Below are positions 42,101 to 58,257 of a stretch of DNA of 64,000 nucleotides, one piece after another. Where the stretch lies: assembly GCA_017934975.1 (NCBI GenBank), contig JAGBIM010000023.1, positions 1 to 64,000 of the forward strand, written 5' to 3'. The position numbers were made by a program, and so were the translations under genes. How positions within the stretch are numbered: the stretch's first letter is position 1; every line of letters starts with the position of its first letter. Below the pieces are notes generated by a model that searched no databases, was not told the origin of the DNA, and worked only from the letters and a program-made list of their open reading frames with translations. The DNA comes from Clostridia bacterium. GTDB taxonomy: Bacteria > Bacillota > Clostridia > Oscillospirales > UBA644.

Positions 42101-42117
42101 TAAACCGTTTCGGTTTA
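42101..42117. repeat. Palindrome TAAACCGTTTCGGTTTA at the amidohydrolase stop
   Basis: A 17-nt dyad with 7-bp arms and a 3-nt centre; its right end is the stop codon of the minus-strand gene. Similar elements are at 2466-2480 and 61518-61533, the latter also over a stop codon. Confidence 0.6.
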
Positions 42118-42930
42118 CAAATCCAAGCCAAACAATGTCTTCGCGTTCTCGGAAAAGATAAGGCGGCGTTCCTCCTCGGTCAGGTCCAGAGCAAGGAAAT
42201 GGTCGATCTCCTCCACGGGAGACCACATGGGGAAATCCGTGCCGTACAGGACCCGATTTGCCCCGTAGGTGCGGACGAGCTTGACGGAGATTTCGGGATG
42301 CTCCATAAAGGGCAGAGAGGAGGAGCAATCCACGTAGAGGTTGGGATATTTCGCCATTTTTTCCGTAGCCTCTTCCCAAATGGACCATCCGCCGAAGTGA
42401 GCGCCGATGACGGTCAGATTCGGGAACTGCTCCAACACGGGAATGAGACGGTTGGGGTTGGAATAATCGTAGCGATAATCCCCCGTGTGCATCAGCACGG
42501 GCAGGCCCATTTCGGAGCAAATGCCGTACATTTCCAAAAATCCGGGATGATCCAAGGGAAAGGCCTGTATGTCGGGATGAATCTTAACCCCCTTCAAGCC
42601 CAATTCCTTCAGATGCTCCATCTCCCCGCGAATATCTTCGCAGAGGGGGTGCATGGTGCCGAGCCCCGTCAGAAGCCCCTTGGCTTCCGCCACGTTGGCA
42701 GCGATAAACTCGTTGATGGAGCGCACCTGCTTGGGCGTGGTGGCAACCGACTGGACGATGAAATGATCGGTCCCCGCCTGCTTTCCCACCTCCAAAAGCT
42801 CCGCCACCGTCCCTTGGGGACAGCGGGCGGTGGTACCGTAAAAGGCGTCGGTTCCCGCCACGGCGCGGGCGGCGATCTTCTCGGGATAGATATGACAGTG
42901 AGCGTCGATGACGTAATTTCCGTTTACCAT
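42115..42930 (-). CDS. Amidohydrolase-family (TIM-barrel) metal-dependent hydrolase
   Basis: A 271-residue amidohydrolase-2-type protein. Metal and active-site blocks are 'YVIDAHCHIYPEKI' at the N-terminus, 'LKGVKIHPDIQAF', 'PVLMHTGDYRYD', 'LTVIGAHFGGWSIW' and 'VLYGTDFPMWSP'. The family includes decarboxylases such as ACMSD and hydrolases. It starts at ATG 42930, which overlaps the stop of the TIM/AMP-ligase fusion (TGATG). It is the last gene of the long valine-T-box operon. Its role there is unknown; a decarboxylase or hydrolase acting on a branched acid derivative is possible. Confidence 0.88.
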   Translation of the reverse strand: MVNGNYVIDAHCHIYPEKIAARAVAGTDAFYGTTARCPQGTVAELLEVGKQAGTDHFIVQSVATTPKQVRSINEFIAANVAEAKGLLTGLGTMHPLCEDIRGEMEHLKELGLKGVKIHPDIQAFPLDHPGFLEMYGICSEMGLPVLMHTGDYRYDYSNPNRLIPVLEQFPNLTVIGAHFGGWSIWEEATEKMAKYPNLYVDCSSSLPFMEHPEISVKLVRTYGANRVLYGTDFPMWSPVEEIDHFLALDLTEEERRLIFSENAKTLFGLDL

Positions 42931-45443
42931 CACAAGCTCTCTTTCTGCGTTTTGATTTTTTCTTCCGCGGCTTCCCGCATCTTATACTTCAGGATCTTTC
43001 CTGCGGCGTTCATGGGGAAGGAATCCACGAAGTCCACGTAGCGGGGAACCTTGTGGCGGGCCATGCTGGCGCCCACGAAGGCACGCATTTCGTCGGGAGT
43101 CATGGTCTCACCCTCCTTCAGAATCACGCAAGCCATGATCTCTTCCCCGTATTTTTCGTCGGGAACGCCAATGACCTGCACGTCGCTGACCTTGGGATTG
43201 GTGTAGATGAATTCTTCGATCTCTTTGGGATAAATATTCTCCCCGCCGCGGATGATCATATCCTTCAGACGCCCCGTGATGTTGTAATTTCCTTCGGGGG
43301 TGCGGCAGGCAAGGTCACCCGTATGCAACCAACCGTCCTTGTCGATGGCGGCGGCGGTGGCAAGGGGCATTTTGTAATAACCCTTCATAATATTGTAGCC
43401 GCGGGCGACGAATTCGCCGTTGACCCCGTCGGGGCAATCCTCACCCGTTTCGGGATCCACGATCTTACATTCCACGTTGGCAAAGGCACTGCCCACCGTT
43501 TCGGTACGCACCTGAAGAGAATCGTAATAGCTGGACATGGTGCATCCGGGGGAAGCCTCGGTCTGTCCGTAAACCGACACGATCTCCCGCATATTCATGT
43601 TGTCGGGCTGGGTGGCCTTCTTCATCAGATCCGCGGGGCAGTTGGAACCGGCCATAATACCGATACGCATATAGCTGAAGTCGGTCTTGGCAAAGTCCTC
43701 GTGCTCCATCATAGCGATGAACATGGTGGGAACGCCGTTGAAAGCGGTGATATGCTCGTTATGCACGCAGGCAAGGGCAGGCTTGGGAGAGAAATAGGGC
43801 AAGGGATACATGGTGGTCCCGTGGGTCATGGATGCGGTCATGGACAGAACCATGCCGAAGCAGTGGAACATGGGAACCTGAATCATCATGCGGTCCGCCG
43901 TGGACAGATCCATGTGATCGCCGATGTATTTGCCGTTGTTGACCACGTTATAGTGGGTCAGCATTACCCCCTTGGGGAAGCCGGTGGTGCCGGAGGTGTA
44001 CTGCATATTGCACACGTCGTCCTTATCCACCAAAGCCGCCATACGATAGACTTCCTCCACGGGAATCTGATTGGCGCGGGCGAGGGCGTCCTCCCAGGTC
44101 ATGCATCCCTTCTGCTTGAAGCCCACGGTAATGACGTTGCGCAGGAAGGGCAAGCGATGGGCGTGGAGGGGTTTGCCGGGCTTGAGGGTTTCCAGCTCGG
44201 GACAGAGACGGCTGATGATCTCCCCGTATTTGGTATCTTTGGCCCCTTCGGTGAGGATCAGCGTATGGGTATCGGACTGACGCAGGAGGTATTCCACTTC
44301 GGCGATTTTATAGGCCGTGTTGACCGTGACCAGAACAGCGCCGATCTTCACCGTAGCCCAGAAGGCAATATACCACTGGGGCACGTTGGAGCACCAGACC
44401 GCCACGTGATGACCGGCCTTGACCCCCATGGAAATGAGGGAGCGGGCGAAGGTATCCACGTCGTCGCGGAACTCGGAATAGGTGCGGGTATAATCCAGCG
44501 TGGTGTATTTGAAGGCGTATTGGTCGGGGAATTCTTCCACCATACGGTCCAACACTTGAGAGAAGGTCAGATCAATGAGCAGATCCTTCTTCCAGATGAA
44601 TTTTCCCGTATGCGCGCGGTTATAATACAGGGTCTTTTCGTTGCGGGAGGTGTCGTTATACTGCTTCATATAGTTGACGAACTGGGAGAAGATGATCTCC
44701 ATATCGTCCAGCTCCTCGCACCATTTCGGATCCCAGACCAGGGAAATAAAGCCATCGTAGTTCACGGAGCGGAGGGCCAGCATCATTTCGGCAACGGGCA
44801 ATTCCCCTTCGCCCGCAAGGCAGAATTCCACCCCGTCTTCGGTGCGCTTGGCGTCGCAGAAATGCACATGCTTCAGGTATGCACCCAAATTCTGAATGAT
44901 CTGCTCCGCCGATTCGCCTCCGTTGAAGTAGGCGGCGGAAAAGTTCCACAATGCCGCCAGATTGTCGCAGGCAAAGCGATTGAGCATTTCCCGCAACAGG
45001 GCGGTTTTGGCGAAGATGCCGGAGGTCTCCAGCAACAGGGTGATGCCCTTTTCTTCCGCTTCGGGGAGCACCGCCTCGATGGTGGCGGCAATTTCATCCA
45101 GAGAAGATTCGTCCCCCGAAACCGCCTTCAAACGGATGTTGGGAATGTGCAGGTTGGAAGCAATGACGATGCAACGGCGGATCTCGTCCAAGGTGGCCTC
45201 ACGAGCGGAGATGTCGGACAGATCGCACAGGGTATCGATGCAGGGCAGCTGCAGCTTCTTTTCGTACAGACGGCGCAAGGTCGCCGCGGCGGCGTAATCG
45301 TGGAACGCTCCGTCCCGATCGGTAAAGAGACGGTTGTTGATGTTGTGAAGCTCTACCCCACCGAAATTCAGTTCGGCGGCGATATCGCAGAATTCTTCAA
45401 AGGTGTTATCGTGCCACCCTCGGGTGGAAAAAGACAGTTTCAT
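42930..45443 (-). CDS. Fusion of xylose-isomerase-like TIM barrel and AMP-forming acyl-CoA synthetase
   Basis: An 837-residue two-domain protein. Residues 1-265 form a sugar-phosphate isomerase/epimerase-like TIM barrel ('MKLSFSTRGWHDNTFEEFCDIAAELNFGGVELHN', 'GITLLLETSGIF', 'LKHVHFCDAKR'). Residues about 285-837 form an adenylating acyl-CoA ligase with 'MQYTSGTTGFPKGVMLTH', 'VSVYGQTEASPGC', 'GWLHTGDLACRTPEGNYNITGRLKDMIIRGGENIYPKEIE' and catalytic Lys block 'NAAGKILKYKM'. The frame runs through without interruption, GAGGAGG precedes the ATG and the previous stop is 3 bases before it. A separate TIM protein beside a separate ligase occurs at 54672-57908, supporting a real functional link. Confidence 0.9.
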   Translation of the reverse strand: MKLSFSTRGWHDNTFEEFCDIAAELNFGGVELHNINNRLFTDRDGAFHDYAAAATLRRLYEKKLQLPCIDTLCDLSDISAREATLDEIRRCIVIASNLHIPNIRLKAVSGDESSLDEIAATIEAVLPEAEEKGITLLLETSGIFAKTALLREMLNRFACDNLAALWNFSAAYFNGGESAEQIIQNLGAYLKHVHFCDAKRTEDGVEFCLAGEGELPVAEMMLALRSVNYDGFISLVWDPKWCEELDDMEIIFSQFVNYMKQYNDTSRNEKTLYYNRAHTGKFIWKKDLLIDLTFSQVLDRMVEEFPDQYAFKYTTLDYTRTYSEFRDDVDTFARSLISMGVKAGHHVAVWCSNVPQWYIAFWATVKIGAVLVTVNTAYKIAEVEYLLRQSDTHTLILTEGAKDTKYGEIISRLCPELETLKPGKPLHAHRLPFLRNVITVGFKQKGCMTWEDALARANQIPVEEVYRMAALVDKDDVCNMQYTSGTTGFPKGVMLTHYNVVNNGKYIGDHMDLSTADRMMIQVPMFHCFGMVLSMTASMTHGTTMYPLPYFSPKPALACVHNEHITAFNGVPTMFIAMMEHEDFAKTDFSYMRIGIMAGSNCPADLMKKATQPDNMNMREIVSVYGQTEASPGCTMSSYYDSLQVRTETVGSAFANVECKIVDPETGEDCPDGVNGEFVARGYNIMKGYYKMPLATAAAIDKDGWLHTGDLACRTPEGNYNITGRLKDMIIRGGENIYPKEIEEFIYTNPKVSDVQVIGVPDEKYGEEIMACVILKEGETMTPDEMRAFVGASMARHKVPRYVDFVDSFPMNAAGKILKYKMREAAEEKIKTQKESL

Positions 45444-45446
45444 GGA

Positions 45447-46823
45447 TTACACCTCCTCGTAAACGATTTTGTTGACGGCGTTGATATAGGCTCGGATAGC
45501 GGCGCCGATGATGTCGGTGGAAATACCGTTCCCCGAATAAAGCTTGCCGTTGGAGCGAAGCTTTACGAGGGCGGAGCCCATGGCCTCTTTTCCTTCGGTA
45601 ACCGACTGGATCTGGAAATCGTCCAGCTCGTAGTGGTGGCCGATGATCTGCTCAATGGCAAGGAAGGAGGCGTCCACGGGGCCGTCGCCCATGCAAATGC
45701 CGTGGATTTCCTTTCCGTCCCGCTCCAACGTGATCTGGGCGCTGGAGGAAATAACGTTGCCGTTGTTGATCACGTAACGCTTCAGTTTATAGGCCGCGGG
45801 AACCTGCAGGGCGGTGCTGGCCACGATGGCTTCCAGTTCTTTTGCCCCCACGGTTTTCCGATCTGCGACCCGCAAAAATTCTTCGTAAACCCGTCCCTGG
45901 TCCTCTTCGGAAAGATCATAGCCCAGTTTCGCCACGGCGGCGGAAACGGCGGCCTGATCGTCTCCCCCATCCAGACGGATGGTGGCATCCTGCTCGGACA
46001 CGGTGACGGCGGTATGTTCGTTCTTGGAATTGCCCGCAATCCAACGCACCTGCTTGACGATGCGGTGAAGCTCGGTGACGCGGACGTTAGTGGAAAGGCC
46101 GTAGGTGTTCCCGCAGTTCTTCACCATATCGGCAAAGATCTCCAAAGGAACTCCATTGCCTTCCACGGAGGTTTTGACCCCGTTCACACCGGCACGGACG
46201 GCTAAAGCCGCAGAAGCGCAGGCAAGGCCGTTTTTATCCTCGCATCCCACGGAAACGGGAACGGTGGTGCTTTCCATTACGCTCTTGGCAAAGGCTGCAA
46301 AATCGTCGGGCATCATTTCGGCGGCGTTATCGCAGACCGAAACGCAGGTTGCCCCCGCTTCCACCGCGGCGGCAAGGACCTTCTGCAAAAAGTCCTTCTC
46401 GGCACGGGTTGCGTCCAGAGCACAGAATTCCACGTCGGCACAGTGCTTTTTGGCCTCGGCCACGGTTTTCACCACGTGCTCCAGCATCTTGGCGGGCTTT
46501 TTATGACAGAGGTATTCCATGCCCACGGGGGACAGAGGAACCTCCACGCGGATGCGGGGACGGGCGGCGGAGGAGAGGGCGGAAAGAGCCTGCTCCAGAC
46601 TGTCGGCTCCCTTTCCTGCGGCCACGGAAAGGATGGAATTTTTCACGAAAGACGAAACGGTACGAACAAGTAGAATATCGGTTTTTCCATTCTGGATTTC
46701 GGGAAGCTCGATCACGTCCACGTTCAGCCGTTCCAGCTGGCGGACCAGTTCGATCTTCTCTTTAAAGCTGTACACACTGCCTTCTTTGCAGAGTGTCGTG
46801 TCGGAAATAACGATTTGTCTCAT
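45447..46823 (-). CDS. Isopropylmalate-synthase-like protein with degenerate active site
   Basis: A 458-residue protein with the IPMS layout: a TIM barrel (1-270), a linker and a LeuA-type regulatory domain (about 330-458, 'RYVINNGNVISSSAQITLERDGKEIHG' and 'GNGISTDIIGAAIRAYINAVNKI'). The catalytic motif DTTLRDGEQ is here DTTLCKEGSV, so the substrate Arg and metal Asp are Cys and Lys. The metal pair HxH is replaced by G193-C-E195 in 'VSVGCEDKNGLA', and the NGxGE motif by 'VEGNGVPLE'. It can hardly be a normal Claisen-condensing enzyme. A regulatory, scaffolding or altered activity is more likely. ATG 46823 follows AAAGGAGC. Confidence 0.85.
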   Translation of the reverse strand: MRQIVISDTTLCKEGSVYSFKEKIELVRQLERLNVDVIELPEIQNGKTDILLVRTVSSFVKNSILSVAAGKGADSLEQALSALSSAARPRIRVEVPLSPVGMEYLCHKKPAKMLEHVVKTVAEAKKHCADVEFCALDATRAEKDFLQKVLAAAVEAGATCVSVCDNAAEMMPDDFAAFAKSVMESTTVPVSVGCEDKNGLACASAALAVRAGVNGVKTSVEGNGVPLEIFADMVKNCGNTYGLSTNVRVTELHRIVKQVRWIAGNSKNEHTAVTVSEQDATIRLDGGDDQAAVSAAVAKLGYDLSEEDQGRVYEEFLRVADRKTVGAKELEAIVASTALQVPAAYKLKRYVINNGNVISSSAQITLERDGKEIHGICMGDGPVDASFLAIEQIIGHHYELDDFQIQSVTEGKEAMGSALVKLRSNGKLYSGNGISTDIIGAAIRAYINAVNKIVYEEV

Positions 46824-46947
46824 AATGATTGCTCCTTTTGTTCTTACTCGTTCGTTTCGTATTTTAGTATTTTTGGAAAACAAAGTATAAAGCCCCGGGG
46901 TCGGCGTATGCCGACTCCGGGACCGTGTGGATCAAAAATCCGATGGA

Positions 46948-48015
46948 TCAGTCAATGGGACAAGTCCAACCGAAGGTGTCTTCGATCTTACCCCATTGAA
47001 TTCCGGTCAGGGTGTCGTACAGATGCTGAGTCACAGCACCGATTTCGCCGTTGTTGACGATATATTTCGTGCCTTTGTAGCATAGCTCGCCGATGGGAGA
47101 AACCACGGCCGCAGTTCCGCATCCCCAAGCTTCTTCCAAAGTGCCATTTTCCATGGCTTCCGCCAGTTCGTCAATGCTCAAAAGTCGTTCGCTGACCTTA
47201 TAGCCCTCTTTGCGTAGGACTTCCAAGCAGGATTTGCGGGTAATCCCGGGTAGGATGGAGCCGGATAGCATGGGCGTGACAACTTCGCCGGCAATCTTGA
47301 ACATCACGTTCATGGCGCCGACTTCTTCAATATATTTGCGTTCCACACCGTCCAGCCAGAGAACCTGAGAGTATCCCTGCTTTTCGGCCCGTTCCCCTGC
47401 ACGGTTACTGGCGGCGTAGTTCCCGCCGCATTTCGCATAACCCGTACCGCCGCGAACGGCGCGCACGTCCTCGTCCTCGATCATGATCTTGACGGGGTTG
47501 ATGCCTTCTTTATAGTAGCTTCCCACGGGGGAGGCAATGATGACGAAGGTGGCGTTGTGCACGGCGTGAACCCCTAAGGTCTCGTCGTTTCCGAAGAGAT
47601 AGGGACGCAGATACAGAGAGGTGCCGGGGGCAGAGGGAGTCCAATCCTGTTCCATTTCCACGAAGGCCTTCAGAACCTGCATGGCGTCCTCTTCGGGAAT
47701 CTGGGGCAGACAGAGACGTTCCGCAGAATTGTTCAGACGGCGGATATTCTCCAAGGGACGGAACAACTGAACCTTACCGTCGGCACGGCGGTAAGCCTTC
47801 AGACCTTCAAAAATTTCGGAACCGTAATGCAACACGGTGGATGCGGGATGGAGGGACAGATTGCCGAAGGGCACGATGCGGGCATCGTACCAACCCTTTT
47901 CCCGGGAATAGTCCATCATAAACATATGGTCCGTAAAGAATTTGCCGAATCCGAGGGTGGAAGCTTCGGGCTTCACCTTGGGGTTGGCGGTTTTGGTAAC
48001 GGAAATATTCATCAT
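46948..48015 (-). CDS. ilvE: Branched-chain amino acid aminotransferase
   Basis: A 355-residue fold-type IV PLP enzyme that exchanges amino groups between glutamate and the 2-oxo acids of Val, Ile and Leu. Conserved blocks: 'ASTVLHYGSEIFEGLKAYRRADG', 'LYLRPYLFG', 'GTGYAKCGGNYAAS' (PLP lysine in YAK), 'DGVERKYIEEVGAMNVMF' and 'EAWGCGTAAVVSPIG'. I chose ATG 48015 (AAGGAG 9 bases before) over an extension to 48033. The long BCAT2-like type fits the length. Placement directly after the 2-oxoacid oxidoreductase genes joins carboxylation and transamination in one transcript. The gap 46824-46947 shows no terminator I trust. Confidence 0.95.
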   Translation of the reverse strand: MMNISVTKTANPKVKPEASTLGFGKFFTDHMFMMDYSREKGWYDARIVPFGNLSLHPASTVLHYGSEIFEGLKAYRRADGKVQLFRPLENIRRLNNSAERLCLPQIPEEDAMQVLKAFVEMEQDWTPSAPGTSLYLRPYLFGNDETLGVHAVHNATFVIIASPVGSYYKEGINPVKIMIEDEDVRAVRGGTGYAKCGGNYAASNRAGERAEKQGYSQVLWLDGVERKYIEEVGAMNVMFKIAGEVVTPMLSGSILPGITRKSCLEVLRKEGYKVSERLLSIDELAEAMENGTLEEAWGCGTAAVVSPIGELCYKGTKYIVNNGEIGAVTQHLYDTLTGIQWGKIEDTFGWTCPID

Positions 48016-48033
48016 AGCCGAAATCTCCTTCAA

Positions 48034-48567
48034 TCAATAATTTGCACCCAACTTCATGGCGTTGAAGTTCACGTCCAGCATATCGGCACGCTTGGCGGAA
48101 ATCACCTTCCCCAAAGCGGCGCGCACGCCTTCTTCGTCAAACTCACCGAGAGCCTCAAGGATTTTACCTACGAGGATCATGTTGGCGAGGGTGGGAGTAC
48201 CGTTGTCGCTGGCCATCTGGGTGGCGGGAAGAGCGTAAACCGTCACGTCGGTGCGGTTCACGGGGCGGGTCACCAGAGTGGAATCCACGAAAATGATGCC
48301 GCCGGGAGCCACGGAGGACTCGTATTTATCCAAAGAGGGCAGGTTCATGGCGACCAGAACGTCGGGGGTGGAAACGATGGGAGAACCGACCGCTTCGTCG
48401 CCCACGATGACACCGCAGGAGGCGGTGCCGCCGCGCATTTCGGGGCCGTAGGAGGGGAGCCAGCTGACGTTCTTGCCGGCCATCAGACCTTTATAAGCCA
48501 CGAACTTACCGGCAAACAGAATCCCCTGTCCGCCGAATCCGGAGAAGAGAAATTGCTTGGTGCTCAT
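48034..48567 (-). CDS. 2-oxoacid:ferredoxin oxidoreductase, gamma subunit
   Basis: A 177-residue gamma-type subunit. Family text is 'FLFSGFGGQGILFAGKFVAYKGLMAGKNVSWLPSYGPEMRGGTASC' and 'PDVLVAMNLPSLDKYE'. It works with alpha, beta and ferredoxin-type subunits encoded just upstream to interconvert acyl-CoA plus CO2 with a 2-oxo acid using ferredoxin. It overlaps the beta gene by 4 bases (ATGA). Confidence 0.93.
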   Translation of the reverse strand: MSTKQFLFSGFGGQGILFAGKFVAYKGLMAGKNVSWLPSYGPEMRGGTASCGVIVGDEAVGSPIVSTPDVLVAMNLPSLDKYESSVAPGGIIFVDSTLVTRPVNRTDVTVYALPATQMASDNGTPTLANMILVGKILEALGEFDEEGVRAALGKVISAKRADMLDVNFNAMKLGANY

Positions 48568-49319
48568 TTCGTTTCCTCCTTTGCACTTCTGTCCTTGTAA
48601 ACGCCCAAGGGGTAGTAAGGAATCATCTTTTCATCGATCCATTGCAGGGCCTTCTGCGGCGTCATACCCCAGTTGGTGGGGCAGGAAGAAAGCACTTCCA
48701 CCAGGGAGAAGCCCTTGCCGTCGATCTGATTCTGGAAGGCCTTCTTAATGGCGGCCTTGGCGGTCTTGATGTTCTTGACGCTGTTGACCGTCACGCGGGT
48801 CAGATATTCGGGGCCGTCCAACTCGGAAAGCAGTTCGCAAACCTTGATGGGGAAGCCGCAATGGTTGGTGTCACGGCCGTAGGGGGAGGTCTGGGTCACC
48901 TGGCCGGGAAGGGAGGTGGGGGCCATCTGTCCGCCGGTCATGCCGTAAATGGCGTTGTTGATGAAAATCACGGTGATGTTTTCGTTGCGGGCGGCGGCGT
49001 GAACCGTTTCAGCCATCCCGATGGAGGCAAGGTCGCCGTCTCCCTGATAGGTAAAGACGATGTGATTTTCCGGGTCGGCACGCTTCACGCCCGTAGCAAC
49101 GGCGGGAGCACGGCCGTGAGCCGCTTCGATCATATCGCAGGAGAAGTAATTATAAGCCATAACGGAGCATCCTACGGGAGCCACGCCGATGGTCTTTCCT
49201 TCAATGCCCAGCTCGTCGATGGCTTCCGCCACCAGACGATGCACGATGCCGTGAGTACAACCGGGGCAGTAGTGCATGGGGGCGTCGGTGAGGGCATGGG
49301 GTTTATCAAACACGATCAT
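48564..49319 (-). CDS. 2-oxoacid:ferredoxin oxidoreductase, thiamine-diphosphate-binding beta subunit
   Basis: A 251-residue beta subunit. The thiamine diphosphate/Mg motif is 'FTYQGDGDLASIGMAETVHAAARNENITVIFINNAIYGMTGGQ' (GDG...NN). The opening cysteines in 'HYCPGCTHGIVHRL' and the later 'GVAPVGCSVMAYNYFSCD' are normal for Kor/Vor enzymes, as is 'SLVEVLSSCPTNWG'. It overlaps the alpha gene by one base (TAATG) and the gamma gene by four. Confidence 0.94.
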   Translation of the reverse strand: MIVFDKPHALTDAPMHYCPGCTHGIVHRLVAEAIDELGIEGKTIGVAPVGCSVMAYNYFSCDMIEAAHGRAPAVATGVKRADPENHIVFTYQGDGDLASIGMAETVHAAARNENITVIFINNAIYGMTGGQMAPTSLPGQVTQTSPYGRDTNHCGFPIKVCELLSELDGPEYLTRVTVNSVKNIKTAKAAIKKAFQNQIDGKGFSLVEVLSSCPTNWGMTPQKALQWIDEKMIPYYPLGVYKDRSAKEETK

Positions 49320-50401
49320 TATTTGGCACCTCCGTTCTGTTCAGCGGCCTTGCAGATGGAAGCAAGAACCTGCTCGGGAGAGGGGATCATACCGCCCACG
49401 CGGTTGCAGAGGGTGACGGGAGCCTTACATTCCGTAGCAAGGCGGACGTCTTCGATCATCTGACCCATGGAAAGTTCCACGGAGATGAAGGCTTTGCAGT
49501 GTTCGGCGGCTTTCTTAAAGGGAGCCGTGGGGAAGGGCCAGAGGGTAATGGGACGAATCATCCCAACCTTAATGCCCTGCTTGCGGGCTTCGTCAATAGC
49601 ATTCTTGGAAACGCGGGCGGCGATCCCGAAGGCGGCAACGCAGATTTCCGCATCGTCCATCAGATATTCTTCGTACAAGGTCTCGGTTTCTTCGATGGTC
49701 TTGTAGCGTTCAAAGCGTTCGAAGTTGGTCTGTTCCAGAGCGGCGGGATCCAGGAAGAGGGAGTTGACGATGTTGTGTTCCCGTTCCATCTTGGTTCCCA
49801 CGGTTGCCCAGGGCTTCTCCACGGTGGGGTTGACCTTCAGCGCGTCGAGAGCAACGGGCTCCATCATCTGGCCCATGGTGCCGTCGGCAAGGATCATGGC
49901 GGTCATGCGGTATTTATCCGCAAGCTCAAAGCCCTTGACGGTCAATTCTGCCATTTCCTGCACGGAAGCGGGGGCAAGAACGATCATCTTGAAGTCCCCG
50001 TGTCCGCCGGCGCGGGTCGCCTGGAAATAGTCGGACTGGCTGGGCTGAATTCCGCCCAGACCGGGGCCGCCGCGCTGCACGTTGATCACCAGCGAAGGCA
50101 GGTCGGCACCGGCAAGATAAGAAAGGCCTTCGCCCTTCAGAGAAATTCCCGGGCTGGAGGAAGAGGTCATAACCCGCTTCCCGGTGGAAGCAACGCCGTA
50201 CACCATGTTGATGGCGGCAATTTCACTTTCGGCCTGGAGGAAGCAACCTCCGATTTTGGGCATACGCTTTGCCATATAGGCGGCAATTTCGGTCTGCGGG
50301 GTGATGGGATAGCCGAAATAATGACGGCATCCTGCGATGATCGCGGCTTCCGCAATGGCCTCGTTGCCTTTCATCAAAACTTTATCGGACACGTTCTTCA
50401 C
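49319..50401 (-). CDS. vorB: 2-oxoacid:ferredoxin oxidoreductase, alpha subunit (VorB-type)
   Basis: A 360-residue alpha subunit with the pyrimidine-binding and transketolase C-terminal domains. It opens 'VLMKGNEAIAEAAIIAGCRHYFGYPITPQTEIAAYMAKRM', which is typical of 3-methyl-2-oxobutanoate (valine-type) and 2-oxoglutarate-type enzymes. Further blocks: 'TSSSSPGISLKGEGLSYLAGADLPSLVINVQRGGPGLGGIQPSQSDYF' and 'VELSMGQMIEDVRLA'. The start is GTG 50401, with GGAAAGG 6 bases upstream, directly after the ferredoxin gene's stop. Branched-chain specificity is inferred from the VorB-like sequence, the adjacent ilvE and the valine T-box. Confidence 0.93.
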   Translation of the reverse strand: MKNVSDKVLMKGNEAIAEAAIIAGCRHYFGYPITPQTEIAAYMAKRMPKIGGCFLQAESEIAAINMVYGVASTGKRVMTSSSSPGISLKGEGLSYLAGADLPSLVINVQRGGPGLGGIQPSQSDYFQATRAGGHGDFKMIVLAPASVQEMAELTVKGFELADKYRMTAMILADGTMGQMMEPVALDALKVNPTVEKPWATVGTKMEREHNIVNSLFLDPAALEQTNFERFERYKTIEETETLYEEYLMDDAEICVAAFGIAARVSKNAIDEARKQGIKVGMIRPITLWPFPTAPFKKAAEHCKAFISVELSMGQMIEDVRLATECKAPVTLCNRVGGMIPSPEQVLASICKAAEQNGGAK

Positions 50402-50608
50402 TCACCTTTCCACTTTGATAACGCAATCGGGACACATGGTCGCGCAGAAGGCACAACCCACGCAGGCCGCCTCGTCGGTCAGCACGGCGGGATGATGTCC
50501 CTTTTTGTTGATTTGATCGGGAGCCAGCACCAGAAGCTTCTTCGGGCAGGCGTCCACACAGAGTCCGCATCCTTTGCAGGAGTCGGTCTTGAAGGTCAAT
50601 TTTGCCAT
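50402..50608 (-). CDS. Ferredoxin-type delta subunit, 2x[4Fe-4S]
   Basis: A 68-residue ferredoxin subunit with two cluster motifs: 'CKGCGLCVDACPKK' and 'CVGCAFCATMCPDC'. It passes electrons between the thiamine enzyme and soluble ferredoxin. ATG 50608 follows AAAAGGAG; the in-frame extension upstream lacks a ribosome site. It is the first of the four oxidoreductase genes (order delta-alpha-beta-gamma). Confidence 0.94.
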   Translation of the reverse strand: MAKLTFKTDSCKGCGLCVDACPKKLLVLAPDQINKKGHHPAVLTDEAACVGCAFCATMCPDCVIKVER

Positions 50609-50653
50609 AACTTTTTCTCCTTTTCTCCGTTGTGTAAAGGGCAAAATGCCGAA

Positions 50654-51316
50654 TTATAATTTTTTCTGCAGTTCCAAGGGGAACAGATTGTCGATTTTTC
50701 CTTGCAGTTGCGGGAAAATTTCCACGGGAACGGTGGTCAGAACCAGGGGAATTTGCATCCGATTCGAAACCGATTCGGCATAAGAAACCGAATTCAAAAC
50801 CACGTCCGCGTCGGTCTGCCGTCCCAGATTGGTGTTGTTGATAAGCCCCGTGAATTTCATGCCGCTTGCAACCTCAATCTCCCGCAGGACCTCCACCGTA
50901 TCCTCCGCCGTCCGGGTCAAAGGACGGGAGGCGTTGATGACGGCCAGCATTTCGTAATCGTTTTCCCGCAGGATAGATTCGGTGATCCGTCCCAGGGCCA
51001 GAGCACCCCGATCGTCCCCGCCCACGTCGACGACGGCGGTCAGGTCTTTATCGTCGGTGACGGCGTACATATCCTGGGGCAGGGCGGGAATGTCCACGTT
51101 GGTGTTGGCGTATTCGGAGCAGATCAGGCGGATACCAGCGTGCTCGAAGTCCTCACGGCTGTCCTTGGTGCGGAAATAGGGATTGACGATGTCCAGATCC
51201 GCCACCGCAACCCGCGGACGGGAACGGCGCAGATGAAGGGCAAGGTTGACGGCCACGTTGGTTTTTCCGCTTCCGTAATGGCCGCAAAGCAAGGTAATGC
51301 GCTTAAAATCTCTCAT
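50654..51316 (-). CDS. P-loop ATPase (MinD/ParA-like) of the branched-chain operon
   Basis: A 220-residue nucleotide-binding protein. Walker A is 'LLCGHYGSGKTNVAVNLALHLR' near residue 10; Walker B-like Asp is in 'VAVADLDIVNPYFRTKDS' and again 'LTAVVDVGGDDRGALALGRI'. 'KFTGLINNTNLGRQTDADVV' is the base-binding region. It resembles the SIMIBI class (MinD, NifH-related, CobQ/CbiA), but no cysteines for a bridging cluster are seen. It lies between the acyl-CoA synthetase (2 bases away) and the oxidoreductase. A chaperone or reductase-activating role for the iron-sulfur or thiamine enzyme is possible. Confidence 0.85.
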   Translation of the reverse strand: MRDFKRITLLCGHYGSGKTNVAVNLALHLRRSRPRVAVADLDIVNPYFRTKDSREDFEHAGIRLICSEYANTNVDIPALPQDMYAVTDDKDLTAVVDVGGDDRGALALGRITESILRENDYEMLAVINASRPLTRTAEDTVEVLREIEVASGMKFTGLINNTNLGRQTDADVVLNSVSYAESVSNRMQIPLVLTTVPVEIFPQLQGKIDNLFPLELQKKL

Positions 51317-51318
51317 AA

Positions 51319-53613
51319 TTACAGTTTATTCCGCTGGATCTTACCGCTGACCGACTTGGGAAGCGAGTCGCGGAAGACGACGATGCGGGGATATTTGTAA
51401 GGTGCGGTTTTCTGCTTGACGTAGGTCTGAATTTCCTTCTTCAGTTCCTCCGTAGGCTCGGTGCCGTTGACCAGAACAATACTGGCCTTGACCACCTGAC
51501 CGCGGACCTCGTCGGGCTCGGCGGAAACGCCGCATTCCAGAACGTAGGGCAATTCCATAATGACGCTTTCGATCTCGAAGGGCCCGATGCGGTAACCCGA
51601 GGATTTGATTACGTCGTCGGCGCGGCCCACGTACCAGAAGAAGCCGTCTTCGTCCTGCCAGGCCACGTCACCGGTGTGATAATAGCCGTCACGCCAGTTC
51701 TCGGCGGTCTTTTCTTCGTCTCCGTAGTATCCCACGGAAAGACCGCAGGGCAAGCCGTTCTTGATGTTGACCACGATTTCTCCCGATTCGCCGGTGGGAA
51801 CGGGGTTGCCATCCGCGCCGTGCAGCTCCACGTCGTAAATGGGAACCTTGCGACCCATGGAGCCGATCTTGTGGGGAGCCCCCACCAGGTTTCCGATCAT
51901 CATCGTACTTTCGGTCTGGCCGAAACCTTCGATGATCTGCAGACCCGTAGCCTTTTCAAACTGACGGTAAACCTCGGGATTCAACGCTTCGCCTGCGGTG
52001 GTCATGTGCTTGACCGAGGAGAAATCGTACTTGGAAATATCCTGCTTGACCATCATGCGGAGCATGGTAGGCGGAGCGCAGAAGGTGGTGATTTGATGCT
52101 TGGCAAACATGGGCAGAATGTCGGCGGCGTCGAAGCGGTCGAAATCGTAAACGAAGATCGCCCCTTCGCAGAGCCACTGTCCGTAGAGCTTGCCCCACAT
52201 GGACTTGGCCCAACCCGTGTCGGAAATGGTGAAGTGCAGTCCGTCGGGATCCACGTTGTGCCAGTATTTCGCGGTATGGAAATGTCCCAGAGGATATTTG
52301 AAATTATGGGCCGCCAGCTTGGGATAGCCGGAGGTACCGGAGGTGAAGAACATGAGCATCAGATCTTCCCCGCCGGGAGCATCCTGCTCGGGACGGTTGT
52401 AATGGGTACTGTAAAGGGTATATTCCTCGTCGAAGCTCCGCCAGCCCTCTCGGGTGCCGTTGACGATAAGCTTGTGCTTCAGCGAGGGGCACTTGGCGGC
52501 GGCGATGTCCACCTGATGGGCGGTGTCCCCGTCGGCGGTGCAGAGAATGGCACTGACGCCGGCGCATTGGAAGCGATATTCAAAATCGTGCTCCTGCAGC
52601 TGATTGGTGGCGGGAATGGCGATGGCGCCCAGTTTATTCAGCCCCATCATGGCGAACCAGAACTGGTAGTGCCGTTTCAGCACCAGCATGACCCGATCGC
52701 CCTTCTTGATGCCCAGGGACTTGAAATAGTTCGCACACTGTGCGGAGGCCTTCTTGATATCCTTGAAGGTGAACCGACGTTCGGTCTTGTCCCGGGAAAT
52801 ATGGAGCATGGCCAGCTTTTCGGGCTCCCGTGCGGCCAGTTCGTCGACAAGATCGAAGGCAAAGTTGAAGTTTTCGATATTCTTGAATCGGATGGAGAGG
52901 GGGGTTCCCTTTTCGTTCTCCTCCACGTCGATATACTTGCGATAGATGCGGTCCTTGCGATCCTCCGCCTTCTTTTCGTGGCGGTCGGCGATGGCGGCCA
53001 CCTCCGTCAGCTCGGGAATGGGTTCTCCCGTGGGATTCAGAACGATGGCGTAGAACACGCAGTCCCGTCCGTTGACGGCGATCATGCCGTGGGGGGTGTC
53101 CGAGTCGAAATAAATACTGTCCCCGGGGCCGAGAACCTCTTTGTGTTCCCCCACCTGAACCATCAGATTTCCTTCGATGATCAGGTCACATTCCTGCCCC
53201 GCGTGGGTGGTCAGCTCAATATCCTTCTGCAGAGCGTCGGGATCGTAAACGCTGCGGACCAAAAGGGGCTCCGCAATGCGGTTCCGGAAGGCGTATGCCA
53301 GGTTGTAGTAGGTCATACCGTGAGCCTGAGACACCTTCTGTCCCGCCCCGTTACGGGTGACGGTATAGGATTTCAGCGTGGGACTGTACCCCTCGATAAT
53401 ATCCGTTACGTTGACGTTCAACGCCATGGCGCAACGGTAAATAAACGCAAAGTTCAGGTCGCTTTTCCCTGCCTCGCACCGAAGATATTCCTCCTCGGTC
53501 ACGCCGGTTTTCAGAGCCATCTCCGCAGAAGAAAGCCCCTCGGCGTCGCGCAACGCACGGATACGCGCGGCCATTTCCTGGATCTTGAAATCAAGACCGG
53601 TCATCTGTTCCAT
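51319..53613 (-). CDS. XRE-cupin-AMP-forming acyl-CoA synthetase fusion (valine T-box controlled)
   Basis: A 764-residue protein. Residues 8-75 are an XRE helix-turn-helix ('MAARIRALRDAEGLSSAEMALKTGVTEEEYLRCE'). Residues 115-195 form a cupin with 'TTHAGQECDLIIEGNLMVQVG' and 'GPGDSIYFDSDTPHGMIAV'. Residues 240-764 form a medium-chain-type acyl-CoA ligase: 'MFFTSGTSGYPKLAAH', 'EGFGQTESTMMIGN', 'GYYHTGDVAWQDEDGFFWYVGRADDVIKSSGYRIGPFEIE' and Lys in 'SGKIQRNKL'. It likely activates a branched short-chain acid to its CoA ester, with the cupin or HTH adding control. AAGGAG lies 12 bases before ATG 53613, rather far. The T-box leader at 53643-53941 precedes it. Confidence 0.92.
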   Translation of the reverse strand: MEQMTGLDFKIQEMAARIRALRDAEGLSSAEMALKTGVTEEEYLRCEAGKSDLNFAFIYRCAMALNVNVTDIIEGYSPTLKSYTVTRNGAGQKVSQAHGMTYYNLAYAFRNRIAEPLLVRSVYDPDALQKDIELTTHAGQECDLIIEGNLMVQVGEHKEVLGPGDSIYFDSDTPHGMIAVNGRDCVFYAIVLNPTGEPIPELTEVAAIADRHEKKAEDRKDRIYRKYIDVEENEKGTPLSIRFKNIENFNFAFDLVDELAAREPEKLAMLHISRDKTERRFTFKDIKKASAQCANYFKSLGIKKGDRVMLVLKRHYQFWFAMMGLNKLGAIAIPATNQLQEHDFEYRFQCAGVSAILCTADGDTAHQVDIAAAKCPSLKHKLIVNGTREGWRSFDEEYTLYSTHYNRPEQDAPGGEDLMLMFFTSGTSGYPKLAAHNFKYPLGHFHTAKYWHNVDPDGLHFTISDTGWAKSMWGKLYGQWLCEGAIFVYDFDRFDAADILPMFAKHQITTFCAPPTMLRMMVKQDISKYDFSSVKHMTTAGEALNPEVYRQFEKATGLQIIEGFGQTESTMMIGNLVGAPHKIGSMGRKVPIYDVELHGADGNPVPTGESGEIVVNIKNGLPCGLSVGYYGDEEKTAENWRDGYYHTGDVAWQDEDGFFWYVGRADDVIKSSGYRIGPFEIESVIMELPYVLECGVSAEPDEVRGQVVKASIVLVNGTEPTEELKKEIQTYVKQKTAPYKYPRIVVFRDSLPKSVSGKIQRNKL

Positions 53614-53642
53614 AAGTACACTGTTCTCCTTTTCCGGGACGG

Positions 53643-53941
53643 AAAAAAAACACACTCGTCCCAAAGCTGATCAAACTTTGAGACGAGTCTTGTAATCAAC
53701 AAACACCCGCGGTACCACTCAAATTGCGGAAAATCCGCCACTCTTGGGATCCAACAATCCCTATGCCTTCACGCAGCAATCACGGGGAGAGTCTACAAGT
53801 CCCGAAGGACGTTCTTTCTCCCGGCTCGGAAGTGACAAACACGGAGGGCCTTCCATGGCTCGCACCAACCGCCATTTCTCTCAAGGGCAACCGCTTCCGC
53901 GTCCTCTTCGTCGACGCCTTTTTCTTCATATTATAATGAAT
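53643..53941 (-). promoter_or_regulatory. T-box riboswitch leader, read as valine (GUC specifier)
   Basis: On the minus strand the leader has stem I with an AGAGA bulge region and the distal-loop text GGCGGTTGGTGCGAGCC. The specifier stretch TTTGTCACTTCCGAG places GTC at 53834-53836, reading by analogy with the usual 'codon-A-CTYCYGAG' pattern. The T-box sequence GAGTGGTACCGCG is at 53708-53720. A 13-bp terminator (53654-53666 with 53676-53688) and a run of eight T (53643-53650) follow. Uncharged tRNA-Val would stabilise the antiterminator and switch on the whole operon down to 42115. Confidence 0.92.
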
Positions 53942-55640: not shown

Positions 55641-57908
55641 TTACAGTTTGTTACGCTGGATCTTGCCGCTGATGGTCTTGGGCAGAGACTCGCGGAAAAC
55701 GACGATGCGGGGATACTTGTAAGGAGCCGTGTTCTGCTTGACGTAATTCTGAATTTCCTTTTTCAGCTCTTCCGTGGGCTCGGTGCCCTTGGTCAGCACG
55801 ACGGAGGCCTTGACCACCTGGCCGCGGACCTCGTCGGGAGCGGCGGAAACCCCACATTCCAGCACGTAGGGCAATTCCATGATGACGCTTTCGATTTCAA
55901 AGGGCCCGATGCGATAGCCGGAGGATTTGATCACGTCGTCCACGCGACCCACGTACCAGAAATAGCCGTCCTCGTCACGCCACGCGGTGTCGCCCGTGTG
56001 GTAGAGGCCGTCGTGCCATGCGTCGTGAGTCTTTTCGGCATCCAGATAATATTCGCGGAAGAGACCGCAGGGGACGGATTTGTCCGTATGAATCACGATT
56101 TCGCCCACTTCCCCGGCCGCAACGCTGTTGCCGTCGGCGTCCACGATATCCAGATCAAACTGGGGCGAAGCCTTCCCCATGGAACCGATACGGGGAGCGG
56201 TCCCCACCAGATTGGCGATAGCAAGGGTGGTTTCGGTCTGACCGAAGCCTTCCATGATTTCCAACCCCGTGGCTTCCTTGAATTTCTTGAACACCTCGGG
56301 GTTCAGGGCTTCCCCTGCGGTGGTCATATGATGGATGGAAGAAAGATCGTATTTGGAAAGATCGCCGCGGATGAGCATACGCAGCATGGTGGGGGGAGCG
56401 CAGAAGGTGGTGATGTTGTATTTGGCGAACATGGGGAGAATGTCGTTCTCGTCGAAGCGGTCGAAATCGTAGACGAAAACCGCCCCTTCGCAGAGCCACT
56501 GTCCGTAGAGCTTGCCCCACAGACTCTTGCCCCAGCCCGTATCGGAAATGGTCAGATGCAGACCGTCCCGCTCGCAACAATGCCAATACTTTGCGGTAAC
56601 GTAATGCCCCAGAGCGTAGGTGTGCTTGTGGGCCGCCATTTTGGGATTTCCCGTGGTGCCCGAGGTAAAGAACATCAGAGCCGTCTCGTCCCCTGCGGAA
56701 GCATCGTCGGGACGCACGTATTTGCGGGAGAAAAGCTTGAATTCTTCATCAAAATTACGCCAGTCGCCCCGTGCACCGCCCACCATGATCTTGGTGGTGA
56801 CCTGAGGACACTTCAGCGCGGCGCGGGCGGCGATGTCCGCGGTATCTCCGTCGGCGGTACAAACGATGGCGGAAACCCCGGCGGCGTTGTAGCGGTATTC
56901 AAAATCGTGTTCCTTCAGCTGATTGGTGGCGGGGATGGCCACGGCACCCAGCTTATGGAGGGCAACCATAGCAAACCAGAACTGATAATGACGCTTCAGC
57001 ACCAGCATGACCTTATCGCCCCGCTTGATGCCCAACGAGGTGAAATAGTTGGCGCACTGGTTGGAATATTGCTTGATATCCTTGAAGGTGAAGCGCCGCT
57101 CGGTGCGGTTCACGTCCAGATGAAGCATGGCCAACTTGTCGGGATAACGCTCGGCGATTTCGTCCACCACGTCAAAGCCGAAGTTGAAGGAATCGGTATT
57201 CTTGAAACGGATATTCTGCAACGCTCCGTTTTCGTCCTCCTCGGCCTCCACGAACTTTTCGCAGACCAGAGGAGCGGAGGATTTTGCCTTCACGATGCTG
57301 GCACGCACCGTCTCCTCCTTCACATCCTCACCGGGCAAAACCACGGCACAGAACACGCAGTCCTCTCCGTCCACGGCAATCATTCCGTGGGGGGTGGAGG
57401 AGTTGTAATAAATGCTGTCCCCTTCGCCCAACACTTCCGTGTTGTTCCCTACCTGCACCTTCAGCTTCCCGCTGATGACCAGGTCGAACTCCTGTCCGCT
57501 GTGGGTAGTCAGATGGATGGGCTTGTTCTGCTGGGAGGGGTCGTATTCATACCGCACCCAGTAAGGCTCCGCGATCTTCTTGCGGAACATAGGGGCAAGG
57601 TTTTGAATGGTGATGCCGTCCTCCTTTGCCGTTTCCTGTCCCATGCCCTTGCGGGTGACGGTGTAGGAAGACAGTTTGGCGGATTTCCCTTCCAGCAAAT
57701 CGGAAATACCGATATTGAACACGAGAGCGCACTTGTGAATAAAGGAGAAGGGAAAATCGGCGGCGCCGTTTTCGTAGTTGCGGTATTCCTCGGGAGTAAC
57801 GTCGGCCTGCAGGGCCATTTCCTCCACGGAAAGACCGGAAATTTCACGCATTTCGCGGATACGGGCCGCGACCTCAAGAAGCTTTGCGGTTTCAACTGTG
57901 GTTGCCAT
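55641..57908 (-). CDS. XRE-cupin-AMP-forming acyl-CoA synthetase fusion (isoleucine T-box controlled)
   Basis: A 755-residue paralogue of the protein at 51319-53613, with the same three parts. XRE domain residues 10-75 ('VAARIREMREISGLSVEEMALQADVTPEEYRNYE'), cupin about 110-190 ('LTTHSGQEFDLVISGKLKVQVG', 'GEGDSIYYNSSTPHGMIAV') and ligase about 230-755 with 'MFFTSGTTGNPKMAAH', 'EGFGQTETTLAIAN', 'GLYHTGDTAWRDEDGYFWYVGRVDDVIKSSGYRIGPFEIE' and 'SGKIQRNKL'. The two differ mainly in the middle of the ligase and the linker. ATG 57908 follows CAGGAGG. By its riboswitch it should serve isoleucine, so 2-methylbutyrate is the likely substrate. Confidence 0.92.
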   Translation of the reverse strand: MATTVETAKLLEVAARIREMREISGLSVEEMALQADVTPEEYRNYENGAADFPFSFIHKCALVFNIGISDLLEGKSAKLSSYTVTRKGMGQETAKEDGITIQNLAPMFRKKIAEPYWVRYEYDPSQQNKPIHLTTHSGQEFDLVISGKLKVQVGNNTEVLGEGDSIYYNSSTPHGMIAVDGEDCVFCAVVLPGEDVKEETVRASIVKAKSSAPLVCEKFVEAEEDENGALQNIRFKNTDSFNFGFDVVDEIAERYPDKLAMLHLDVNRTERRFTFKDIKQYSNQCANYFTSLGIKRGDKVMLVLKRHYQFWFAMVALHKLGAVAIPATNQLKEHDFEYRYNAAGVSAIVCTADGDTADIAARAALKCPQVTTKIMVGGARGDWRNFDEEFKLFSRKYVRPDDASAGDETALMFFTSGTTGNPKMAAHKHTYALGHYVTAKYWHCCERDGLHLTISDTGWGKSLWGKLYGQWLCEGAVFVYDFDRFDENDILPMFAKYNITTFCAPPTMLRMLIRGDLSKYDLSSIHHMTTAGEALNPEVFKKFKEATGLEIMEGFGQTETTLAIANLVGTAPRIGSMGKASPQFDLDIVDADGNSVAAGEVGEIVIHTDKSVPCGLFREYYLDAEKTHDAWHDGLYHTGDTAWRDEDGYFWYVGRVDDVIKSSGYRIGPFEIESVIMELPYVLECGVSAAPDEVRGQVVKASVVLTKGTEPTEELKKEIQNYVKQNTAPYKYPRIVVFRESLPKTISGKIQRNKL

Positions 57909-57976
57909 GGTTTTTACCTCCTGAAAAAATTTCCTGAGCCTGTGTTTTTGTTGGAGGAAACGGATTTGCGGCTCAT

Positions 57977-58257
57977 AAAAAAACAAACCCGTCCCAAAGA
58001 TAAAGTCTTTGAGACGGGTGTAAAAATACAATACACTCGCGGTACCACTCAAATTGCGGAGAAGTTCTCCACCACTCTTGGGATCCAACAATCCCTATGC
58101 CTTTACGCAGCAATCACGGAAGGCGCCTACTGACCGCAGAGCGTTCGGACCTTCGGCTCGGAGGTGATGGGTTATGAGGAGGCTTGCTTCCGACTCGCAC
58201 CAACCGTCGGCTCTCTCCAAGCAAGGGACTCCAAACCGTCCTCGTCACAGCTTTTAT
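57977..58257 (-). promoter_or_regulatory. T-box riboswitch leader, read as isoleucine (AUC specifier)
   Basis: On the minus strand: stem I with GAGAGAG and distal loop GACGGTTGGTGCGAGTC. The specifier stretch CCCATCACCTCCGAG places ATC at 58166-58168. The conserved T-box sequence GAGTGGTACCGCG is at 58038-58050. A terminator (57987-58000 with 58006-58019) and a T-run (57977-57983) follow. Leader layout and many bases match the valine T-box, so the two arose by duplication and changed specifier. Confidence 0.92.

Follow-up and report, generated by a model that had tools for sequence, protein, structure and literature searches.

The gene at positions 45447-46823 (minus strand) of the window, by which we mean the whole 64-kb stretch of DNA that was analysed, encodes a member of a conserved pseudoenzyme family that is previously undescribed in the literature we searched. 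Judging from its residues, this protein, here called psLeuA, is a relative of isopropylmalate synthase (IPMS, LeuA) that has lost catalysis; both its status as a pseudoenzyme and the link of its family to leucine supply are well supported. We consider it probable, though by no means certain, that psLeuA acts as a stand-alone, trans-acting leucine sensor of TIM_ACS, a ligase encoded next to it that would start leucine synthesis from isovalerate. The features of the window that matter here are the following.

42115-42933, minus strand: amidohydrolase (Amidohydro_2), a frequent third gene of the psLeuA-TIM_ACS unit (Pfam, neighbourhood)
42930-45443, minus strand: TIM_ACS, an AMP-forming acyl-CoA ligase with a fused N-terminal barrel of the xylose-isomerase-like TIM type (Pfam, adjacency, ligase motifs)
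45447-46823, minus strand: psLeuA, an IPMS-like protein of 458 aa, apparently catalytically dead (intact ORF, Pfam, residue tables)
45465-45845, minus strand: LeuA_dimer allosteric domain of psLeuA (residues 327-453), its most conserved part (PF08502)
46044-46823, minus strand: HMGL-like TIM barrel of psLeuA (residues 1-260), active site lost (Pfam PF00682, AF2 model, residue table)
46832-46838, minus strand: ribosome-binding site AAAGGAG of psLeuA, about 8 nt 5' of the ATG (sequence)
46891-46924, minus strand: strong terminator-like hairpin between ilvE and psLeuA, no T-box (-27.8 kcal/mol, z -5.1)
46948-48033, minus strand: IlvE branched-chain aminotransferase (NCBIfam NF009897, over cut-off)
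48034-50644, minus strand: vor genes for the gamma, beta, alpha and ferredoxin subunits of 2-ketoisovalerate:ferredoxin oxidoreductase (VorB NF005507, 543 bits, over cut-off; neighbourhood)
50654-51316, minus strand: P-loop ATPase (CbiA/ParA-like), same module as vor (Pfam, neighbourhood)
51319-53664, minus strand: HTH-cupin-acyl-CoA ligase fusion 1, closest model MbcS (Pfam, NCBIfam)
55641-58091, minus strand: HTH-cupin-acyl-CoA ligase fusion 2, whose relatives have an isoleucine (AUC) T-box (relatives' leaders)

The frame of psLeuA is open from the ATG at 46823 down to 45447, and an earlier, sequence-only reading, which had described an intact frame with a good ribosome site, was right on both counts. 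LeuA catalyses the committed step of the standard leucine pathway and is inhibited by leucine via its C-terminal domain (PMC11057210; PMC10464499). Compared with LeuA (TIGR00973; M. tuberculosis 3FIG with leucine), psLeuA has the same two-domain architecture, the same barrel fold and the pocket motifs of LeuA_dimer. Its barrel matches the Pfam HMGL-like model with 108.5 bits, and its C-terminal region matches LeuA_dimer with 106.6 bits against 24.9. On the other hand, psLeuA reaches only 241 bits with the NCBIfam equivalog TIGR00973, for which the cut-off is 598.7, and all the NCBIfam LeuA models score it far under their cut-offs. The AlphaFold (AF2) model of psLeuA has a pLDDT of 84.7 and superimposes on the IPMS barrel 3eeg with a VIA Z of 36.0 (263 residues, 1.8 A), and on those of 3ewb and 3rmj with 35.7 and 35.1. 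When both domains are compared with leucine-bound M. tuberculosis LeuA (3fig), the fit has a VIA Z of 30.2 over 378 residues, but at 9.5 A, so that the domain arrangement is not fixed by it. Foldseek and VIA gave nothing beyond what was expected, relatives among the DRE-TIM metallolyases and carboxylases.

To follow the catalytic site across the family, we collected 80 contig loci and, by an order-wide search, arrived at 108 further full-length homologues (109 including the protein of the window). Seven catalytic or metal positions were scored, namely 12, 13, 136, 193, 195, 217 and 224 in the numbering of the window protein. All seven residues are gone from the latter, which confirms the loss described in the sequence-only reading. 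The motif DTTLRDGEQ has become DTTLCKEGS, the Arg and the metal Asp being replaced by C12 and K13 (not C11 and K12, as these real substitutions had been numbered), while 19/19 true LeuA proteins have R and D. The metal HxH is now G193-C194-E195, and in strand 8, the last of the barrel, K217 replaces the Glu and G224 the metal-binding Asn. A further loss had been missed: the general-base Glu after barrel strand 5, which we take to be the equivalent of MtIPMS E218, is L136. None of the seven residues is left in 98 of the 109 homologues and the best member has three, whereas 19/19 true LeuA proteins of this order have 7/7. The substitutions are thus not unique to this strain. Nor do C12, K13 and E195, proposed earlier for a check of conservation, form a conserved new active site. 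Across the family, R, K, S, A or Q is found at position 13 and D, S, E or N at position 195, the positions of the former HxH vary throughout, and C12 is missing from most of the distant members. Since the letters at 12, 13, 193 and 195 differ among members, we see no new active site there. We also considered whether the cysteines C12, C134, C164 and C194 could form a new metal or Fe-S site and rejected this, as C12, C134 and C194 are mostly missing from distant members.

The gene is nevertheless under purifying selection, with NG86 dN/dS values of 0.03-0.12 across 13 independent pairs and of 0-0.05 for the regulatory domain, in agreement with the earlier statement that it is not simply a decayed gene. 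That psLeuA is a decaying pseudogene or an assembly artefact might be argued from the lost catalytic residues and from the fact that the genome is a fragmented metagenome assembly. With these dN/dS values, a frame that is intact in more than 100 independent genomes, invariant regulatory residues and a conserved gene order, we regard this explanation as refuted and its probability as negligible.

The distribution of constraint within psLeuA is inverted relative to LeuA, with the leucine-binding-type domain being more constrained than the barrel. Among the close homologues, the mean pairwise identity is 0.58 for the barrel and 0.78 for the regulatory domain, the latter being higher in 1500/1500 pairs; among the distant ones the values are 0.44 and 0.67 (406/406 pairs). 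In true LeuA, however, the barrel has a mean identity of 0.64 and the regulatory domain of 0.49, and the latter is higher in just 7/171 pairs. The regulatory domain of psLeuA is LeuA-like, with an identity of 0.39 to LeuA and of 0.20 to CimA. It keeps the LeuA-type residues D384, G431, T436 and Y446 as well as the motifs GDGPVDA and GISTDI at the helix starts of the leucine pocket. A near-invariant block, GHHYELDDFQIQ (residues 395-406), is specific to the psLeuA family and unlike LeuA.

The barrel has family-specific invariant residues of its own, K109, K217, P96 and C164. They count against a sensor, as they could mark a new ligand or a new reaction. One could therefore assume that psLeuA has acquired a metal-independent catalysis in leucine supply, carried out by K217, K109, D165, C164 and R140 in the old pocket. 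K109 and K217 indeed hardly vary in either close or distant members and are not the residues of LeuA, C164 is retained in 75/80 close and 26/29 distant members, and purifying selection persists on the barrel. Yet the barrel is the less constrained half, positions 12, 13, 193 and 195 of the pocket are free to vary, which would be unusual in a conserved active site, and folding, too, constrains the inward-pointing core of a TIM barrel. We therefore consider a new catalysis unlikely.

The constant partner of psLeuA is TIM_ACS. Wherever the downstream gene is visible, psLeuA lies immediately 5' of TIM_ACS (110/110 loci). This holds for 79/79 testable contig loci and, order-wide, for 30/30 loci down to about 40% identity, the locus of the window included; one genome outside the order also has the pair. 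In 77/79 loci the two genes are separated by at most 6 nt or overlap by 4 nt, and in one genome they have been duplicated jointly. The sequence-only reading had listed the vor subunits, IlvE and the ligases as potential partners. The TIM_ACS ligase fits this role, while we do not take vor or IlvE as partners, because they are often not adjacent. The ligase half of TIM_ACS is intact, with the YTSGTTGFPKG and catalytic-lysine motifs essentially invariant in 72 copies. In lone copies of TIM_ACS, found without psLeuA in other genomes, the barrel half retains metal-type residues (VETNG, WD..HHPY, H.KDS, LEW), whereas the N-terminal 260 residues of the psLeuA-paired copies have largely lost them, and the early-branching copies of three loci (L125, L126, L128) are intermediate. 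The lone copies also tell us that the ligase fold is in general independent of psLeuA.

A leucine link comes from the leaders of the relatives. A T-box motif was found upstream of the psLeuA-TIM_ACS pair in 83/109 homologues, using a motif widened so as to cover distant members; in three of the other homologues the upstream sequence is too short or lacking. The Rfam model RF00230 scores over gathering in 20/20 psLeuA loci tested, and also at the more distant L201 and L211. Among 80 parsed leaders the specifier codon is CUC in 75 and CUG in 5, that is, leucine in 80/80, while shifted frames at the same site give mixed amino acids. We confirmed the rule for reading specifiers on T-boxes that precede PheS (UUC) and AsnS (AAC) at loci of this set, these control genes being identified by eye from the sequence. 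A case of a CUC-leucine T-box is cited in PMC2494555. The genus of the window is the exception: an Rfam scan of the 64-kb window gave no match, hence no RF00230 leader, and this genus has lost the T-box, which speaks against a sensor. The hairpin at 46891-46924 is common to its four sequences (the window, L008, L009 and L019); it resembles the terminator half of a T-box and is perhaps a relic of it, the other parts of the T-box having apparently disappeared from the genus. The T-boxes that precede relatives of the second HTH-cupin ligase, HTH_ACS2, read isoleucine (AUC; L199:11134-11370, L204:166-409, L211:6986-7225), which suggests that this ligase serves the route from 2-methylbutyrate to isoleucine, alongside the leucine unit.

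The strong conservation seen in the regulatory domain could also stem from a structural or docking function that does not involve leucine, and this is a further point against a sensor. In such a case psLeuA would be a structural or activating subunit of TIM_ACS (a scaffold, a chaperone or an obligate partner) that uses its regulatory domain for dimerisation or docking and does not sense leucine. The invariable gene pairing and the translational coupling are what one would expect, the most conserved block of the protein, which is unlike LeuA, could be a contact surface, and the barrel of TIM_ACS is likewise without a metal site. However, GDGPVDA, GISTDI and the LeuA-specific residues have been retained without drift, the operon is leucine-specific, and lone TIM_ACS genes exist. 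We give this explanation a real but minor chance. A bolder possibility is that psLeuA, the metal-less TIM barrel and the ligase together make up a novel enzyme of several barrels, with the former IPMS pocket performing a metal-free step of the leucine route, for example guiding or carboxylating an acyl-CoA, with K217 and K109 as working residues. This, details included, seems to us quite doubtful.

In the genus of the window, psLeuA shares a single run with ilvE, vor and the genes of two HTH-cupin ligases, and the gene set of a module for reductive carboxylation of branched-chain acids (VorB, IlvE and an intact AMP-forming ligase) is present. The N-terminal HTH and cupin of both ligases resemble the front end of a transcription regulator placed on an enzyme. 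At distant loci we find VOR, PFOR or IOR genes and further acyl-CoA ligases nearby, and many loci have no adjacent vor or ilvE. The run in the genus of the window might suggest that psLeuA controls gene expression in response to leucine, or that it acts on VOR, IlvE or the HTH ligases rather than on TIM_ACS. We find this very improbable: Pfam detects no DNA-binding domain in psLeuA, transcription is already handled by the T-box, and TIM_ACS is always adjacent while vor and ilvE are absent beside many loci.

Next, we asked which genomes carry psLeuA. We sampled 147 genomes of the order, some of them incomplete, of which 31 have psLeuA and 116 do not. In 26/31 hosts psLeuA is the sole protein with a LeuA_dimer domain, and 108/116 of the other genomes have such a protein (Fisher 4e-17, ignoring phylogeny). 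The hosts are mostly without LeuA, CimA and KARI, yet have VOR: KARI was found in 3/31 hosts and 66/116 others, VorB in 28/31 and 69/116 (phylogeny is ignored and some assemblies are incomplete). True LeuA occurs in 45 of the 147 genomes, none of which has psLeuA, and a role of psLeuA as a partner of true LeuA was rejected on this ground. An intermediate match of 308 bits (G144) belongs to a leu operon of the usual kind, together with CimA and LeuC, and was thus read as an ordinary LeuA. LeuC itself (TIGR00170) gives weak support, with no genome over the cut-off and aconitases matching the model too. In summary, the standard leucine pathway appears to be gone from the hosts, which are gut bacteria. 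In the genome of the window, a fragmented metagenome assembly that is 71% complete, we found no canonical LeuA or CimA. The term paralogue used in the sequence-only reading thus calls for caution, and within this assembly psLeuA is an orphan.

In a phylogenetic tree, psLeuA and the copy from outside the order form one clade (100/100) with a long stem, which falls outside the sampled LeuA and adjoins CimA with moderate support (91/92). While this position counts against the sensor model, it is possibly due to long-branch attraction, and by overall identity psLeuA is closer to LeuA. The differences from LeuA also extend to genomic context, since psLeuA is found outside the leu operon and in genomes without LeuA.

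Since the leucine-sensing half is the most conserved, the ligase is a constant neighbour and the operon is controlled by leucine, psLeuA probably signals sufficient leucine to the ligase. The most constrained, LeuA-like regulatory domain and the leucine T-box of the relatives likewise support the earlier suggestion of a leucine-sensing role for the neighbouring enzymes. In the sensor model, TIM_ACS would activate isovalerate to isovaleryl-CoA, VOR would reductively carboxylate the latter to 2-ketoisocaproate, and IlvE would aminate this to leucine; isovalerate is the putative substrate of TIM_ACS on account of the leucine T-box and the context. Leucine would sit between two LeuA_dimer domains, psLeuA would dock on TIM_ACS, probably by the HHYELDDFQ block together with both of the non-catalytic TIM barrels, and when leucine is plentiful it would turn the ligase down. 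Leucine binding, complex formation and the direction of control are all predictions of this model. In this way, feedback control of the first leucine step would have passed in trans from the old pathway to a salvage pathway.

According to PMC7356843 and the references given there, carboxylation of isovalerate to leucine is an established rumen route. Its steps of acid activation, reductive carboxylation and transamination (Allison and co-workers, as cited in PMC7356843) fit the psLeuA gene set. In our literature search we found no description of a dedicated ligase with a leucine-sensing pseudoenzyme for this route, which has been reported in rumen bacteria since the 1960s, and psLeuA-TIM_ACS is a candidate gene and regulator for it. 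If the sensor model is true, an allosteric domain has outlived its own enzyme, and an old leucine sensor has been kept in trans over a new first step. There may also be a problem with automatic annotation; pipelines may label psLeuA genes as leuA and so wrongly imply that the hosts are leucine prototrophs through the standard pathway.

A similar principle is known from histidine synthesis, where HisZ, which derives from histidyl-tRNA synthetase, is a biochemically proven regulatory subunit. It is an analogue, not a homologue, of psLeuA: a catalytically dead relative of an enzyme that regulates the short form of the ATP phosphoribosyltransferase HisG, with which an amino-acid pathway begins (see PMC10795190). 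As with HisZ, psLeuA combines lost catalytic residues with retained purifying selection, and in principle it may work like a HisZ-type regulatory subunit. However, psLeuA derives from the enzyme of the committed step on the standard route to leucine, the amino acid whose synthesis it would now control, and its role is putative.

Another likeness is found at loci with phenylacetate-CoA-ligase-type genes (L206, L213), where an ACT-domain protein, likewise a small protein of the amino-acid-sensor type, stands by a ligase in a module of the reductive-carboxylation type; the fold is ACT, and the branch is aromatic instead of leucine. Such an aromatic counterpart, with phenylacetate-CoA-ligase-type genes and a paired ACT protein, lies at L206:260-9082, L212:14510-16421 and L213:153-1907. 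The locus in L206 has an IOR-like subunit and a T-box that reads Tyr (UAC), and the T-box in L212 probably reads Phe (UUC). Finally, the Rfam Gut-1 sRNA model matches near a psLeuA locus with 75.7 bits (L207:19406-19481).
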